Notes under the pieces: model-generated
Database searches by the model: none
Told to the model about the DNA's origin: nothing
The model's input: only the letters and a program-made list of their open reading frames with translations
Shown here: piece after piece, positions 49,601 through 62,190 of the stretch
How positions within the stretch are numbered: position 1 is the first letter of the stretch
How the letters are laid out: each line of letters opens with the position of its first letter
Source: Elusimicrobia bacterium GWD2_63_28
GTDB lineage: Bacteria > Elusimicrobiota > Elusimicrobia > Elusimicrobiales > UBA9959
NCBI GenBank assembly: GCA_001799895.1
Contig: MGUI01000007.1
Coordinates: 62,001 to 126,000, forward strand
Length of the DNA stretch: 64,000 nucleotides
Direction of reading: 5' to 3'
Made by a program: the position numbers and the translations under genes

Positions 49601-50608
49601 ATGAAAAGAACTGAATTTACGGCGGTGGTGCCGGTGGCCGGAGCGGGGACGCGGTTGCGCCCCCACACGCATACTTATCCCAAGGTGCTGCTTACCGTGG
49701 GGGACAAGCCGATAATAGGCCACATCCTCGACGACATCTCCGCCGCGGGGATTAAAAAGGTCTGCCTGGTGGTGGGCTACCTGGGCGAGAAGATAAAGGA
49801 GTACGTCTCCGGGAACTACAAGGGCCTTGAGGTGACTTACGTGGAGCAGCCCGAGCCCAAGGGCCTGGGCCACGCCATCTGGCTGACCCGCCGCGCGGTG
49901 ACCGGGCCGGTGGTGGTGATGCTGGGCGACACCATACTCGACGCCGATCTTTCCAAGTTCCTGGGTTCGAAAGAAGACTGCATAGCGGTGAAGGAAGTGG
50001 CGGACCCGCGCCGCTTCGGCGTGGTGGAGGTGAAGGGGGGGCATATCTCGGCCATGGTGGAGAAGCCCGAGCATCCGAAGACGAAGCTGGCCATCGTCGG
50101 CATCTACTCCTTCCGCAACTCGGCCCTGCTCTACAACAGCCTGGAGCGGCTGGTGGAGTCGGGCAGGACCACCAAGGGCGAGATACAGTTCACCGACGCG
50201 CTGGCGATGCTGGTGAAGGGCGGACACAAGATAAAGCCGGTGCCGATAGAGGGCTGGTATGACTGCGGCAAGCCCGAGACGCTGCTGGAGACCAACCGCC
50301 ACATACTCGACAAGAAAAAATTCTCCCCGAAGGCGAAGAACTCGCTGATAATCCCGCCGGTCTACATCTCCCCTACGGCGAGGGTTGAGAACTCCATCGT
50401 CGGGCCGTACGCCTCCATAGGCGACGGCGCCAGGATCGATTCCTCCATCATCTCGGATTCCATCGTCAACGAGAACGCCCAGATAATGAACATCAACCTG
50501 GGCGGTTCGCTGGTGGGCCCGAGCGCCACCGTCATCGGGCGCAAGGACCAGCTCAACGTCGGGGAAAACTCCGAAATAAGGTTCGACAAGACTATCTGCG
50601 AGCCTTAG
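49601..50608 (+). CDS. Sugar-1-phosphate nucleotidyltransferase with left-handed beta-helix tail
   Basis: This 335-residue protein has the nucleotidyl-binding signature GAGTRLRPHT followed by YPKVLL (about 12-30) and a Rossmann-like core to about 235. Its tail (about 250-325) is made of hexapeptide-like repeats. It makes an NDP-sugar from NTP and sugar-1-phosphate; the glucose-1-phosphate thymidylyl- or uridylyltransferase type is most likely. It may feed the glycan clusters 15-28 kb away. Its last four bases overlap the end of the convergent kinase gene. Confidence 0.83.
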   Translation: MKRTEFTAVVPVAGAGTRLRPHTHTYPKVLLTVGDKPIIGHILDDISAAGIKKVCLVVGYLGEKIKEYVSGNYKGLEVTYVEQPEPKGLGHAIWLTRRAVTGPVVVMLGDTILDADLSKFLGSKEDCIAVKEVADPRRFGVVEVKGGHISAMVEKPEHPKTKLAIVGIYSFRNSALLYNSLERLVESGRTTKGEIQFTDALAMLVKGGHKIKPVPIEGWYDCGKPETLLETNRHILDKKKFSPKAKNSLIIPPVYISPTARVENSIVGPYASIGDGARIDSSIISDSIVNENAQIMNINLGGSLVGPSATVIGRKDQLNVGENSEIRFDKTICEP

Positions 50609-53112
50609 GCGGCTCCCGCCCTTATCTCGGCGGCGGGCAGCGTGAAGTAGAAGGTGGTCCCTTTGCCGTCCGCGCTGTCCACCCACACCCTGCCGCCGTG
50701 CAGCTCGATAAAATCTTTGACTATGACCAGCCCCAGGCCCACGCCCTCCTGCGTGTCGTAGGACGCGACCTGGACGAACTTCTTGAAGATCTTGTCCAGG
50801 TTCTCCTTGGGTATGCCGTGGCCGGTATCCCGCACCCCGAACAGCACCCCTCCGTCCGCCGCGGGGTTAGGCCCGGCGGCCACCGTGATGGTGCCTCCCT
50901 CCGGCGTGGCTTTTATGGCGTTGGAGATCAGGTTCGTCAGCACCTGCACTATGCGCGGCGGGTCGGCCAGGGCGCAAAGGTCTTCCGCCACGGGGCGCAC
51001 GCTCAGCGTTATCCCCTTGGTCTTGGCCCAGGGGACCAGCCCGTCGGCGGTTTCCGCCAGGATGGGCGCCACCAGCGAGGGCTGAGGGTGCATGTCCATT
51101 TTGCCGGCCTGGAGTTTTGAGAAGTCCAGGATCCCCTTGATCATCTGGCTGAGCCGGTGGCTGTTGCGGATGCTGATGTCGAGGAACTTGTTCTCCGTCT
51201 GATCCAGCTTCTGCCCGGCCCCGTCGTTCAGCATCTCCAGGGCGGCGGTTATGGAGGACAGCGGGGATTGCAGGTCGTGGGTGATGCGCGAAAGGAACTC
51301 CTCCTGCATCTTCTGCGCTTCTTTGTACTTGGTGATCTCGGGCAGGGTGGTGTAGGTGCCCAGCACGCGGCCCTCGTCGTCTTCCAGCAGGGCCACCGAC
51401 CGGCGCAGCGCCCGGCCCATGCGCTCGTCGCCCTGCACGTCCACCTCGCCGGAAACGGGGTTGTCCCCGGTAAGGTCCATGTCCTTGGAGAGGGTGAGGA
51501 AATGCTCGCCCGGCCTCATGTGCTCGGAGATATGCTTGCCCACGGCGTCGGCCAGCTTGGTGCCGGCTATCTCCTCGGCCACGGGGTTCATCATCAGGAT
51601 CCTGCCGTCCTTGTCCACTATAACCTTGCCTTCCGCCACCCGCGACAGCACGTGCTCGGTGCGGCTGCGGGTTTTCAGGGCCTGCTCCTTTTCCGCGGCC
51701 AGCGCCCTTGTGGATTCGGCGATCTGCTGCTCCATCGTCTCTTTGAGCATCTTCATCGCGTCCTCATAGGCGTGTACGCGGTCCCTGGGATCTTTCACGG
51801 TGGATTCCACCAGCCCTTTCAAGATGCCGCCGAAACTCATATTGGCCAGCGCGCTGGCCTGCTGCTGGTCTTCCGTTTTTTTCTCGGCTTCCGCCGGGGC
51901 CGCCTGTTCCTGCTTTGCGGCCGCGGCCGGCGCCGGCTCGAAAATAGAATCCATAGCCGACTTTGGCAGAGGCGTATTCGCCGCTGCGCCCCGGGGGGCC
52001 GGCCTGGCCGGGCCGAAAATAGCGTCGCAATCGACGGTGGAACCTGTGCAATGGCCCTGCTCTGTGCTGCCGGAAACAGCGCCGCGTCCCTGGCCGGTGC
52101 CGCCGGAGCCCTGGCCCGTACCGCCGCGTCCCTGGCCGGTGCCGCCGGAGCCTCCCGAGCCCTGGCCCGTGCCGTGTCCGCCCGAACCGCCGGAACCCTG
52201 TCCTGTGCCCGGAGCCGCGGCTGGCCCGCGGCCGGTGCCGGTTCCGGCAACCGCGGCGCCTCCCGTGGCCCTCTCGATCGTATGTGCCGTTGCGGGCGCC
52301 GGCGCGGCTTGCCTCGGGGGAGGAGCCGCAGCGGGCCTCGCTGCCTGTGCCGGCGCGGCCTGCCTGGGAGGCGGAGCCGCAGCGGGTCTCGCGGCCGGTG
52401 CCGGGGCGGCGCTGCGTATCGGCTGCGCGGCCTGCGCGGTCGTCCCGGGCGAGGCCGCGGTCCTCGCGGGCGGAGCATACGCGGCCGACCGCGGAGCTTG
52501 CGCCGGGGGCGCCTGCCGGGGCTGCTGCTGCGGCGCCGCGCGGGCCGGCCGGGTTTCCTGTTCCTCCGCCGGCTCATACCTGTAGCCCTGCTGCTGCCGC
52601 GAATAACCTGCTTCCTTTATGTAATGCGTCGATTCGGACCTGATATTCGTCACGCCTTTCGCGGCGAAGAACTCGTCTATGGAACCGGGGCGGTTCCTGG
52701 CCGGGGTGGAGAGGAATTCGCACAGTATGCCGAGTTCGAAAGACTGCAGCTTGTTCAGGAAGGTGAGGCCGGTCAGGTTGTGCGCCTTCAGGAAGGCGTT
52801 CAGGTTCTGGGATTCCTGCGTGAGGGCCGGCACCGGGGCGTCGTTGAAAAGCCACGCGTCGTTGGCGAAGGAGATCGTCAGGGAATCGTCTTTCCTGGCC
52901 TTAAGGATCATGCCGATCAGGGTCATGTTCTTGTGCACGGAGTCTATTACGACGGGATGGGACAGACCGTATAGCGCCGTGTTCTTGATGGCCTTGGCGA
53001 GCGCCGTCAGCAGGGTGGAGCAGAGCTCCGTGTAGGACATCTCGTAGCTGGAATAGTCCGGGGCGTACTGGGCCACGCTTTGATCCAGGCCATTATCTTC
53101 AAGCGGTTCCAT
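50605..53112 (-). CDS. PAS-containing sensor histidine kinase with novel N-terminal domain
   Basis: This 835-residue kinase has no membrane segment. Residues about 20-165 form a helical domain I do not recognise. A Pro/Ala/Gln-rich stretch (about 190-280) and a Gly/Thr/Gln repeat (about 290-346) follow. Next are a helix (about 440-485), a PAS domain (about 487-600), a HisKA box with His612 in THDLQSP, and an ATPase domain (N box about 727-740, DTGHGIP, GVGLGLVIV). The ATG at 53112 is chosen because GGGG lies about eight bases upstream; a GTG at 53121 is the alternative. It follows the receiver-ATPase gene. Confidence 0.85.
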   Translation of the reverse strand: MEPLEDNGLDQSVAQYAPDYSSYEMSYTELCSTLLTALAKAIKNTALYGLSHPVVIDSVHKNMTLIGMILKARKDDSLTISFANDAWLFNDAPVPALTQESQNLNAFLKAHNLTGLTFLNKLQSFELGILCEFLSTPARNRPGSIDEFFAAKGVTNIRSESTHYIKEAGYSRQQQGYRYEPAEEQETRPARAAPQQQPRQAPPAQAPRSAAYAPPARTAASPGTTAQAAQPIRSAAPAPAARPAAAPPPRQAAPAQAARPAAAPPPRQAAPAPATAHTIERATGGAAVAGTGTGRGPAAAPGTGQGSGGSGGHGTGQGSGGSGGTGQGRGGTGQGSGGTGQGRGAVSGSTEQGHCTGSTVDCDAIFGPARPAPRGAAANTPLPKSAMDSIFEPAPAAAAKQEQAAPAEAEKKTEDQQQASALANMSFGGILKGLVESTVKDPRDRVHAYEDAMKMLKETMEQQIAESTRALAAEKEQALKTRSRTEHVLSRVAEGKVIVDKDGRILMMNPVAEEIAGTKLADAVGKHISEHMRPGEHFLTLSKDMDLTGDNPVSGEVDVQGDERMGRALRRSVALLEDDEGRVLGTYTTLPEITKYKEAQKMQEEFLSRITHDLQSPLSSITAALEMLNDGAGQKLDQTENKFLDISIRNSHRLSQMIKGILDFSKLQAGKMDMHPQPSLVAPILAETADGLVPWAKTKGITLSVRPVAEDLCALADPPRIVQVLTNLISNAIKATPEGGTITVAAGPNPAADGGVLFGVRDTGHGIPKENLDKIFKKFVQVASYDTQEGVGLGLVIVKDFIELHGGRVWVDSADGKGTTFYFTLPAAEIRAGAA

Positions 53113-53117
53113 ATAGA

Positions 53118-55229
53118 TCACCCCATCATTATCTTGAACGCCTCGGACAGGGAGGTCTGGCCCTGCCTGACCGCGTCAAGGACCGACTGGCGCAGCGAGG
53201 TCATGCCCTCGCTGACGGCCAGCGCGTTCAATTTGTCCACGTCGTTGCTGGTGGTTATCATCTGCCTCATAGCGGTAGATTCCACCGGCATCACCTCGAA
53301 AACGGCCCTGCGCCCGGAGAAGCCGCCGTTGCAGCTGTGGCAGCCCACGGGGTGGTATACTATTTTTAGGGAAGCTATCTCCTCCTCGGTCAGGAACTTT
53401 TTATCGTCTTCGGTAACCCCGCCCTTGCCGCGGCAGTGCGGGCAGAGGGTGCGCACCAGGCGCTGGGCGACCACCAGTTTTACGCTGGCGGCCACCAGGT
53501 AGGGGGCTACGCCCATGTGCGTGAGCCGGATGATCGTGCCGGGCGCGCTGTTGGTATGCAGCGTGGAGAAGACCAAGTGGCCGGTGATGGAGGCCTTGAT
53601 GGCAATCTCGGCGGTCTCCATGTCGCGGATCTCGCCCACCAGCATGATGTCGGGGTCCTGGCGCAGGAAGGCGCGCAGCGTGGATTCGAAGGTGAGGCCG
53701 ATGCTGGAGAGGATCTTCACCTGGTTGACGTTGGGGACCTCGTACTCGACGGGGTCCTCGGCCGTCATGATGTTGACGTCGGGCTTGTTCAGCACGTTGA
53801 TCATCGTGTAGAGGGTGGTGGTCTTGCCGCTGCCGGTGGGCCCGGTCACCAAAATGAGGCCGTTGGAGCTTTTTAGCGCGCCTTCCACGCAGGTGTGTTC
53901 GCGCGGGGAGAGGGTAAGCTTGGACAGGTCGCTGTTGAGCTTGCTCTGGCCCAGCACGCGCATCACTATCTTCTCGCCTTTGATGCAGGGCACCGTGCTG
54001 ACGCGGAACTCTATCTTGTTGCCGCGTATCACTACCCGGAACTGCCCGTCCTGCGGCAGGCGGCGCTCGGTGATGACCAGGCTGCTCATGATCTTTATGC
54101 GCGCGGTAAGCCGCTGGTGGATGGAGATCGGGAGCGTGGTGAGCAGCCGCAGCACGCCGTCCACGCGGACGCGCACCACGACGCGGTTCTCGAAGGGCTC
54201 TATGTGTATGTCCGAGGCCCGCATTTCCACGGCCGCCATCAGGATCTTGTTCACGCGTTGTATCAGCGGCGAGTCGTGGCTGAGGTTCTCGAGGCCCTGG
54301 TTATCCTGGGGCTCATCCTTGCCGAAGCCGCCGCTTTCCAGCATCTCCAGCTCGGCATTGTCCTCGCCGAGCATCGCGTCCATGTCCACGCCCTCGGCCT
54401 CAGGCTCCGGCTCCGGCGCGGGGGCCGGCGGTTCCGGCTGGGCGATCAGCTCCGGGCCCGACTCCGGCTCCGCCACCGGTTCTGGCTGGCGCGCTTCGGT
54501 AGGCAGCTCAACCTGCACAGGTTCAGGCGGAAGTTCTTCCTGTGGCAGCGGCTCTTCCGGCTGCGCCGGCGCCGCCGCGGCCGGCAGCGCCGAGGCTTTT
54601 TCAAAGCGCTCTATGGCCAGCGAAGGCGGCTCCAGCTCTACCTCCTCGGGCAGCTCCACGCTCTCCTGTTTCGGCTCCGGCCTGGGCTCCGGTTTAGGCT
54701 CCGGCCTGTGAGGGGCCTGCTGGGGCACGCTGCCGAAAGCCCGGTAGATGCTGTCTAAAAGCTTGGCGTTGGAAACCGGCTTCTCCAGGAAATCCGTGAT
54801 GTCCATGTTCAGGGTGCGCAGCTGGGCCCGGTTGGTGGCCCCGGTGAACATTATTATCCTCAGTTTGCGGGTTTCGTAGTTGCTGCGGATCTCTTGTATC
54901 AGCTCGTACCCGTTCATCTTGGGCATATTGAAGTCGACCAGCACCAGGTCAGGGACCTGCCTGTTTATAACCTCCATGGCCTCCTGGCCATTGCCGGCCT
55001 CCAAGACAGTGTAATGGTTGACCATCAGCAGGTGTTTTACCAGCTCCCTGTAATCCCTGTTGTCGTCCACCACCAGCACGGTTCTCGCGGCATTGGCGGG
55101 GCGCTGCGCAGACGCCGGCGCGGGCTTAGCGGCGGGGAGCGACTGAGCCCGCGCCGGAGATACTGCCGGCGCCATCGCGGACTTCGTCCCGAAGTCCGCA
55201 CCCTGCTTGCTGGGAGCATACATCGTCAT
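53118..55229 (-). CDS. Receiver-GspE/PilB ATPase fusion
   Basis: This 703-residue protein starts with a receiver domain (about 48-165; acidic pair Asp55-Asp56, phosphoacceptor Asp99 in VLVDFNMP, Lys150 in EKPV). A Pro/Glu-rich linker (about 170-280) follows, then a type II secretion / type IV pilus assembly ATPase (about 315-700). The ATPase is complete: Walker A GPTGSGKT (463-470), GEIRD (532-536), and four zinc-type cysteines (596, 599, 630, 633). The usual N-terminal GspE domain is replaced by the receiver. A sensor kinase gene follows directly. Confidence 0.9.
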   Translation of the reverse strand: MTMYAPSKQGADFGTKSAMAPAVSPARAQSLPAAKPAPASAQRPANAARTVLVVDDNRDYRELVKHLLMVNHYTVLEAGNGQEAMEVINRQVPDLVLVDFNMPKMNGYELIQEIRSNYETRKLRIIMFTGATNRAQLRTLNMDITDFLEKPVSNAKLLDSIYRAFGSVPQQAPHRPEPKPEPRPEPKQESVELPEEVELEPPSLAIERFEKASALPAAAAPAQPEEPLPQEELPPEPVQVELPTEARQPEPVAEPESGPELIAQPEPPAPAPEPEPEAEGVDMDAMLGEDNAELEMLESGGFGKDEPQDNQGLENLSHDSPLIQRVNKILMAAVEMRASDIHIEPFENRVVVRVRVDGVLRLLTTLPISIHQRLTARIKIMSSLVITERRLPQDGQFRVVIRGNKIEFRVSTVPCIKGEKIVMRVLGQSKLNSDLSKLTLSPREHTCVEGALKSSNGLILVTGPTGSGKTTTLYTMINVLNKPDVNIMTAEDPVEYEVPNVNQVKILSSIGLTFESTLRAFLRQDPDIMLVGEIRDMETAEIAIKASITGHLVFSTLHTNSAPGTIIRLTHMGVAPYLVAASVKLVVAQRLVRTLCPHCRGKGGVTEDDKKFLTEEEIASLKIVYHPVGCHSCNGGFSGRRAVFEVMPVESTAMRQMITTSNDVDKLNALAVSEGMTSLRQSVLDAVRQGQTSLSEAFKIMMG

Positions 55230-55288: not shown

Positions 55289-55317
55289 AGTATAGGCCCG
55301 GGCGCCGGAATTTACAA
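55289..55317 (-). promoter_or_regulatory. Sigma70-type promoter of the receiver-ATPase gene
   Basis: On the minus strand TTGTAA (55317-55312) and TATACT (55294-55289) are exactly 17 bp apart. They lie about 60 bases upstream of the ATG at 55229, in an otherwise GC-rich gap. Confidence 0.6.
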
Positions 55318-55372: not shown

Positions 55373-56092
55373 TCAGGGGCGGCGCTTTTGCGCGCGCCTG
55401 TAGGAGGAAGGGGTGGTGCCGGCTATTTTTTCGAATTGCCGGATGAAAGATTCGGCGTTGGCGTAGCCGAGCTTGGCCGAGATCTGCTTGACGCTGCCGC
55501 CGGTGGTTTTCAGCAGCTTTTTGGCCTGCGCCATTTTTACTTTCAGCCTGTATTCGTTGAAGCCCATGCCGGTATGCTCCCTGAACACGCGGCTCAGGTA
55601 TTTAGGGGCCAGGTAAACCGTGCGCGCGGCGTCCTGCAGGGTTATCTTCTTGAAGCAGTTGCCCTCGAGGAACCAGCGGACATGCTCTATCTTCCCGTCG
55701 AGGTCCATCTCGCCGGGGCTCGCCTCCCCGCGGAGGCGCGACAGCTCCTTCTCTATGGCTTCGCGCATCGTCTTAAGTTCGAAGGGCTTCTCTATGTAAT
55801 TGTCGGCTTTGCCTTTCAGGGCGCGGATGGCCGAATCCTTGGTGCTGAAGCCGGTCATGATGATGACGCTTTTACCAGGCGCGGCCGCCTTCACTTTGTC
55901 TAGGGCGGTCAGGCCGTCCATGCCGGGCATCTGCACATCCATGATGACCAGCTGCAGCTCGTTGGGTTTTTTGAGGATGGCCAGGGCCTCCTGGGCGCTG
56001 CCGGCCTCGGTTATGTCGTAATCTTCGTACCAGAGCTTGAAATCGGTACGCAAATCCGCGTTGTCGTCTACCAGCAGTATCTTGCCGCGCAT
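55373..56092 (-). CDS. Response regulator with AraC-type DNA-binding domain
   Basis: This 239-residue protein has a receiver (1-118; Asp9-Asp10, phosphoacceptor Asp52 in VIMDVQMP, Thr80, Lys102 in EKPF). A C-terminal AraC-family helix-turn-helix pair follows (about 135-235, with KYLSRVFREHTGMGFNEY). It should bind DNA and control transcription on phosphorylation. The kinase 2.3 kb downstream is a plausible partner but not proven. A hairpin covers its ribosome-binding region. Confidence 0.9.
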   Translation of the reverse strand: MRGKILLVDDNADLRTDFKLWYEDYDITEAGSAQEALAILKKPNELQLVIMDVQMPGMDGLTALDKVKAAAPGKSVIIMTGFSTKDSAIRALKGKADNYIEKPFELKTMREAIEKELSRLRGEASPGEMDLDGKIEHVRWFLEGNCFKKITLQDAARTVYLAPKYLSRVFREHTGMGFNEYRLKVKMAQAKKLLKTTGGSVKQISAKLGYANAESFIRQFEKIAGTTPSSYRRAQKRRP

Positions 56093-61230: not shown

Positions 61231-62190
61231 ATGGCCACTGCTAAAAAACTCAGCTGGGTACTGCGGCTCAACGGCGTCACGCTGCGCCTGCGGGACCTCT
61301 CGCGGCGGCTCTTCCCGTTCCTGCTCGACCCGCTGAAGATACGGGCCGTAGCGCTGGAGACCACCACCGCCTGCACCCGCAATTGCCCCTACTGCCCGCC
61401 GCATTCCAACATGGCCATCCCGCCGCTGAAGATGTCCCGGGAAATTTTCACCCGCGCTGTCTCCTCGCTGGGGGCGCGCGGCTACGCCGGGGACATCTTC
61501 TTCAGCCTCTACGGCGAGTCCCTCGCCGACGACAGGCTGGGCAGCCTGCTGGCCGAGGCCAAGGCGGCCGCGCCGGCAGCCCGGCTGGTGGTTTTCACCA
61601 ACGGCGACCTGCTGACCGTGGAGCGCTTCCTCAGCCTCAGGGCGGCCGGGCTGGACGTCATGTTTATTTCCCTGCATTCGCCGGAACCCGGCGAGGCCCT
61701 TGCCGGCACCCTGGAAAAGATCAAGCGGGACTGTCCCGGGCCGGACTGCGTGGGGCTGGTGGATTATTACAGCCAGTACCTGCCCGGCAACGACGTGGGG
61801 CTGCTCAACAACAAGGGCGGCCTGGCCGACGTGCACCGGCGGCCTTTCCTCAGCTGCTGCGATATAGAGTCGGCCTGCGTGGACTGCCTGGGCAATGTGC
61901 TGCTTTGCAACAACGACTGCACTTCCTCCTACGTCTTCGGCAATGTGCTGGAGAAGGATTTCTACGAGATCTGGGAGGCCCCCGCCTTCGTACTGGCCCG
62001 CCGCAAGATAACGCGCGGGAAGTGGATCTTCGAGATCTGCCGACGCTGCATGAGCCGCGGCGGGCTGACTACGCCGGTGCCGCGGGGCAAGGCGGCGCGG
62101 CTGCCCCCCGCTTTTAACGACATGGCGGCAACCCTGAAGAAACTGGAAGAAGAGGCCGCCGCGAAGAAAAAGGGGGGGCGCCGGGCATGA
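61231..62190 (+). CDS. Radical SAM protein with SPASM-like cysteine tail
   Basis: This 319-residue protein has the radical SAM cluster motif CTRNCPYC (Cys48, Cys52, Cys55). Cysteine-rich segments lie late in the protein (CCDIESACVDCLG, CNNDC, ICRRC), as in SPASM proteins that hold extra iron-sulfur clusters. The reaction is unknown; SPASM enzymes modify peptides, proteins or sugars. It overlaps the next gene by ATGA, so the pair probably works together. No precursor peptide gene is seen nearby. Confidence 0.82.
   Translation: MATAKKLSWVLRLNGVTLRLRDLSRRLFPFLLDPLKIRAVALETTTACTRNCPYCPPHSNMAIPPLKMSREIFTRAVSSLGARGYAGDIFFSLYGESLADDRLGSLLAEAKAAAPAARLVVFTNGDLLTVERFLSLRAAGLDVMFISLHSPEPGEALAGTLEKIKRDCPGPDCVGLVDYYSQYLPGNDVGLLNNKGGLADVHRRPFLSCCDIESACVDCLGNVLLCNNDCTSSYVFGNVLEKDFYEIWEAPAFVLARRKITRGKWIFEICRRCMSRGGLTTPVPRGKAARLPPAFNDMAATLKKLEEEAAAKKKGGRRA

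Follow-up and report, generated by a model that had tools for sequence, protein, structure and literature searches.

A candidate phosphorylation-gated pilus motor in Elusimicrobiota: a receiver domain stands where a PilB/GspE-type ATPase normally carries its N1 domain

Results

Organization of the locus

The window analysed here, a stretch of 64,000 nucleotides, corresponds to positions 62001–126000 of contig C7 in a genome of 3.29 Mb and 74 contigs whose nearest records are Elusimicrobia MAGs. On its minus strand lie, in the direction of transcription, a gene for a receiver-AraC-type regulator, which the first-pass annotation of this DNA had not mentioned, a gene fusing a receiver to an assembly ATPase 143 bp further on, and a histidine kinase gene (Table 1). 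No other pilus genes were found within the window.

Table 1. Coordinates of the features at the fusion locus (window positions)
Feature	Position	Strand	Details
REC-linker-PilB/GspE ATPase fusion gene	53118..55229	-	703 aa
Receiver (CheY-like) domain	54747..55079	-	residues 51-161; Response_reg (PF00072) 91.8 bits (cut-off 30.2); active site conserved
Phospho-acceptor Asp99 codon	54933-54935	-	within receiver
Pro/Glu/Ala-rich low-complexity linker	54282..54737	-	residues 165-316 (about 153 residues); low pLDDT 168-314
PilB/GspE-type ATPase (N2 + C domains, zinc tetracysteine)	53136..54281	-	residues 317-698; T2SSE (PF00437) 433 bits (cut-off 24.9), model positions 3-369/370; nearest solved structures PilB
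Soluble histidine kinase	50605..53112	-	835 aa: new N-terminal domain, low-complexity linker, PAS, HisKA, HATPase_c
Kinase N-terminal domain (conserved)	52594..53052	-	~150 aa; alignment, pLDDT 90.8
Receiver-AraC-type DNA-binding response regulator	55373..56092	-	Pfam + synteny
Sigma-70-like promoter match	55289..55317	-	upstream of fusion; weak: 1 found vs 0.5 expected by chance

An intact receiver joined to an intact assembly ATPase

The Pfam families reported in the fusion protein were Response_reg, T2SSE and two sub-threshold AAA/NTPase families. MshEN/N1 (PF05157), which four other ATPases of the same genome carry (on contigs C31, C35, C4 and C58), was not found in it by Pfam, and nothing was recognised between the receiver and T2SSE. 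The first-pass annotation had described a complete receiver, with Asp99 and Lys150, in place of the usual N-terminal domain of a full-length GspE/PilB-type ATPase, joined by a Pro/Glu-rich linker; every element of this description held, the linker being rich in Ala as well.

The receiver shows a canonical active site (Asp55/Asp56, Asp99, Thr129, Phe147 and Lys150-Pro151). Across all fusion receivers aligned, Asp56, Asp99 and Lys150 are invariant, residue 55 is Asp or Glu, and residue 129 is Thr or Ser with the exception of two loci discussed below. A degenerate receiver is ruled out by this invariance, and the fused receiver is very likely phosphorylatable.

With regard to the ATPase, the Walker A motif, the Asp box, the Walker B motif and the His box are all present, as are the zinc ligands C596, C599, C630 and C633, and all of them are invariant in 22 relatives. 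The linker measures between 60 and 161 aa among relatives, and within the GTDB family of the window a conserved IERFE motif is found in it, along with an acidic patch ahead of the ATPase. This spread in length, together with the very low model confidence of the linker in the window protein, is more in keeping with a tethered docking module than with a rigid lever. The AlphaFold model of the whole fusion, with a mean pLDDT of 58.5, is poor across the ATPase core and uninformative on contacts between receiver and ATPase.

Distribution and origin of the fusion

A database search for receiver-GspE fusions, which had been proposed as a check, recovered about 39 independent loci, all of them within one class of Elusimicrobiota; an assembly error or a chance open reading frame is ruled out by this number of conserved loci. 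In particular, 21 of the 59 genomes in the window's family carry the fusion, which is also present in four further families of that class, and the phylum-wide receiver search did not reveal it in family f2 of the same order nor in other classes. In that search, fusion receivers gave E values from 1e-69 to about 1e-26 and were clearly set off from ordinary receivers, at 1e-23 and weaker. Scanning GTDB genome contigs yielded 21 loci that contain the fusion in full, their sources being Elusimicrobiota MAGs or other bacterial records. Among the 5000 best matches to plasmid records, none covered 80% of the fusion query. In one genome (G015; loci L118 and L148), the receiver part and the ATPase part were found on separate contigs, and the receiver match contains a TGA in frame; contig ends or a splitting of the gene probably account for this.

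A tree of ATPase domains placed 21 fusion representatives in one clade with a support of 100/100, separate from PilB, from the remaining assembly ATPases of the window's genome and from the PilBs of other phyla, which argues for a single origin. Repeated independent fusion as the source of these loci is thus unsupported.

The window's genome encodes a second receiver-bearing assembly ATPase, a MshEN-GspE-REC protein with an intact C-terminal receiver on contig C4 (L009:7872-10052, minus strand); 22 bp downstream begins a histidine-kinase-like gene (HATPase_c, FHDIIN motif). Of the 59 family genomes, 23 have strong relatives of this ATPase, and in at least eight of them a related kinase-like gene comes next. 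It shares with the fusion the succession of an assembly ATPase with a receiver and then a histidine-kinase-like gene; it differs in that MshEN is kept, the receiver sits at the other end and the ATPase falls outside the fusion clade. On its domain order and phylogenetic position, it arose independently as a fusion and is another case of a kinase paired with a putative motor. Furthermore, contig C48 (L014:7820-10039, minus strand) encodes a 739-aa TadA-type ATPase with what looks like a P-loop (CpaE/TadZ-like) domain at its N terminus, and TadA-type frames of similar length occur in genomes related to the one that carries this contig.

A soluble histidine kinase is retained together with the fusion

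Pfam recognised PAS, HisKA (PF00512) and HATPase_c (PF02518) in the kinase, the latter two above cut-off, and its phosphoacceptor His is invariant in 20 relatives. No membrane-helix-like stretch was found in it, the best Kyte-Doolittle mean over 19 residues being 1.04. The fusion stop and the kinase start are separated by five bases if the kinase begins at the ATG at 53112; a GTG at 53121 would overlap the stop of the ATPase gene. The earlier proposal of a cytoplasmic kinase encoded five bases behind the ATPase gene was therefore borne out, given the start at 53112.

For the N-terminal domain of the kinase, Pfam gave no match above cut-off and the PDB no clear relative, and fold searches yielded no Foldseek match at E <= 0.001; the best fold match, a two-helix Asp-phosphatase (Z 4.3 over 52 residues), is uninformative. 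The kinase linker contains a Gly/Gln/Thr-rich repeat stretch (GTGQGSGGSGG) and DAIF/DSIF motifs, which resemble the N-terminal DAMF motif of many fusions and are possible docking peptides.

In 37 of 39 distinct loci (21 in the window's family and 18 outside it), the fusion is followed, immediately or nearby, by a kinase that shares the N-terminal domain described above. As these are draft genomes with contig ends, three of the 37 kinase genes are cut by such ends. The adjacency, whose persistence across homologues the first-pass annotation had singled out for checking, is hence kept. When the fusion-linked kinase type was defined at E <= 1e-40 in a family search, it was present in exactly those 21 of the 59 genomes of the window's family that carry the fusion and was missing from all 38 others. 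A more distant paralogue is present in almost all genomes of the family. This soluble kinase with the same new N-terminal domain was observed, for instance, at L016:4760-6745 (plus strand), where a PilT-like gene lies about 1.4 kb away on the other strand.

The kinase is absent from the two remaining loci, L182 (= L039) and L183, which are sister sequences in the ATPase tree, and it is solely in these two that Thr/Ser129 of the receiver is replaced by Met or Ala. This coincidence of kinase loss with the exchange of residue 129 is a natural experiment, if a small one, linking the function of the receiver to the kinase. On the strength of these patterns of conservation, the downstream kinase is very probably the phosphate donor of the fused receiver.

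Affiliation of the putative motor to a machine

Several observations bear on the machine that the fusion would serve. The NCBIfam equivalog models scored it at 516.8 bits for PilB (cut-off 675.65) and 487 bits for GspE (cut-off 630.25), neither cut-off being reached; the canonical PilB of the same genome also stayed below the PilB cut-off (647 vs 675.65). The nearest homologues beyond the phylum are PilBs, many of them within pilB-pilT-pilC operons, and no receiver was detected in the closest of these homologues with a receiver profile. Within the phylum, four loci from families f14 and f15 (L172, L173, L179 and L181) have pilT as the gene immediately upstream of the fusion, and the two of these upstream PilTs that were scanned reached 439 and 453 bits with TIGR01420 (cut-off 319). 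A TPR gene follows the fusion in 16 of the 18 loci outside the window's family, and operons of the order pilT - REC-pilB - TPR - kinase occur in other families.

The host genome itself encodes T4P components at several places: contig C31 has at its end a pilB with MshEN and a c-di-GMP motif, the end of contig C12 carries pilT and pilC, and a pilin and a prepilin peptidase are encoded on contig C35. The fusion thus coexists with an ordinary MshEN-type PilB in the same genome. The suggestion of an orphan motor in the first-pass annotation stands in so far as the window has no pilus genes and the fusion no platform (PilC/GspF) gene beside it; it does not extend to the genome, which has T4P genes elsewhere, nor to the relatives with pilT beside the fusion. 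A genome that is 99% complete (G217) is instructive in this respect: it has three assembly-type ATPases, on contigs C18 and C37 plus the fusion on its C35, vs two non-Tad platform genes (C18, C37), each adjoining a MshEN-bearing ATPase, so that the receiver-bearing motor, if it is one, must share a platform. Taken as a whole, the protein is likely to be a T4P-type extension motor.

The same phospho-gated motor could instead power a T2SS-like pseudopilus or another secretion filament rather than a retractile T4P, as the closeness of the PilB and GspE profile scores and a second locus with GspE, GspF, secretin and PilM- and PilO-like genes on contig C58 of the genome would allow; we consider this unlikely in view of the pilT neighbours in four relatives, the PilB structures as best solved matches and the homologues in pilB-pilT-pilC operons. 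More improbable still is that the protein is a signalling hexamer, that is, a sensor of nucleotide or phosphate that regulates, for example, polysaccharide, and no motor. PilB of Myxococcus xanthus regulates EPS independently of pilus assembly (PMC5544727), and both the missing platform gene and the adjacent DNA-binding regulator would suit such a role, to which the invariance of all catalytic and zinc motifs and the linkage to pilT in relatives are opposed.

The upstream regulator as an exchangeable output

In the window's family, almost every locus has the AraC-type regulator next to the fusion, and the regulator is of this type in that family only; elsewhere, an OmpR-type regulator takes this position in one genus of another family, and the gene is absent from most other loci. 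Since the receiver-ATPase and the kinase are kept together whether the regulator is AraC-type, OmpR-type or absent, the regulator appears to be an exchangeable extra output and the fusion the constant partner of the kinase. That the receiver is a phosphate sink or kinase tether, the neighbouring DNA-binding regulator being the true output and the ATPase ungated, would match the regulator's near-constancy in the window's family, and is the least probable of the readings considered, given that in other families the kinase and the fusion stay paired where the regulator is OmpR-type or missing.

The first-pass annotation had inferred control of the motor "directly, without transcription". Direct control of the motor remains the simplest reading, as it follows from an intact receiver, an intact assembly ATPase and a kinase that is conserved, co-inherited and co-lost; the exclusion of transcription has to be relaxed, because a gene for a DNA-binding response regulator lies just upstream in the window's lineage and the kinase may also drive transcription.

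Discussion

Known control of extension motors operates either through c-di-GMP at the N-terminal domain or in trans, by way of response regulators and adaptors (PMC11656802, PMC7690835), c-di-GMP acting on PilB-type motors through N1/MshEN (PMC11656802). The fusion shares with PilB and MshE ATPases the N2 and C-terminal domains, the Walker motifs, the Asp and His boxes and the zinc tetracysteine, homologues in pilB-pilT-pilC operons and, if our reading is right, regulation via the N-terminal domain. It departs from them in lacking the c-di-GMP-binding N1/MshEN, in bearing a receiver on a long flexible linker instead, and in being encoded with a histidine kinase and not with pilC.

Two systems described previously approach this arrangement. 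PixE of Synechocystis, a PATAN-CheY response regulator, has been proposed to bind the pilus motor PilB1 (cited in PMC7690835); here too, receiver-based control is aimed at the extension ATPase itself, but PixE acts in trans via PATAN and a blue-light receptor, whereas the fusion receiver is in cis and accompanied by a soluble kinase. In Myxococcus, SgmX (TPR) and FrzS (pseudo-receiver) recruit PilB (PMC11580455). The analogy lies in a receiver-like and a TPR element acting on PilB recruitment, a TPR gene being present in the Elusimicrobiota operons outside the window's family; in contrast, FrzS has no phosphorylation residues, and that system consists of separate proteins and the MglA GTPase. 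A combination of MshEN with REC is mentioned by Wang 2016, with no detail in the main text (PMC5013675). No receiver-PilB/GspE fusion appeared in the titles and abstracts searched, a scope that leaves most subscription papers outside, and the word 'receiver' is absent from a 2024 review of PilB (PMC11656802). Unrelated fusions of the same layout may exist in other phyla.

The reading that we favour, and hold to be somewhat better than evenly supported, is that of an accessory pilus extension motor, gated by phosphorylation, driven by the kinase and working on a shared T4P-type platform. A phosphorylatable receiver would have taken over the place of N1 (MshEN), the domain that binds c-di-GMP or partners. 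Through its novel N-terminal domain and PAS, the soluble kinase would sense an internal signal, and it would phosphorylate Asp99 of the fused receiver. On its long flexible tether, the phosphorylated receiver would then license or block the engagement of the ATPase ring with a platform protein common to the receiver-bearing motor and the ordinary PilB of the cell. Phosphotransfer, the use of a T4P platform, the mode of recruitment and the sign of the effect are points that we infer, and a recruitment or docking switch seems the better bet over rigid allostery. A further, more tentative idea is that two alternative extension motors serve one T4P platform, an ordinary PilB under c-di-GMP control via MshEN and a receiver-PilB controlled by a dedicated cytoplasmic phosphorelay, and that these two unrelated signals compete or cooperate there.

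If this phosphorylation-gated motor exists, an internal signal in members of this little-studied phylum could switch surface filaments on or off with no delay for gene expression, and a motor-borne receiver that is inherited together with its kinase would amount to direct two-component control of a filament motor in cis. The pair of loci with kinase loss and receiver decay and the accessory-motor arrangement provide concrete predictions, and a single Asp would offer a simple handle on how N-terminal domains gate PilB-type hexamers.
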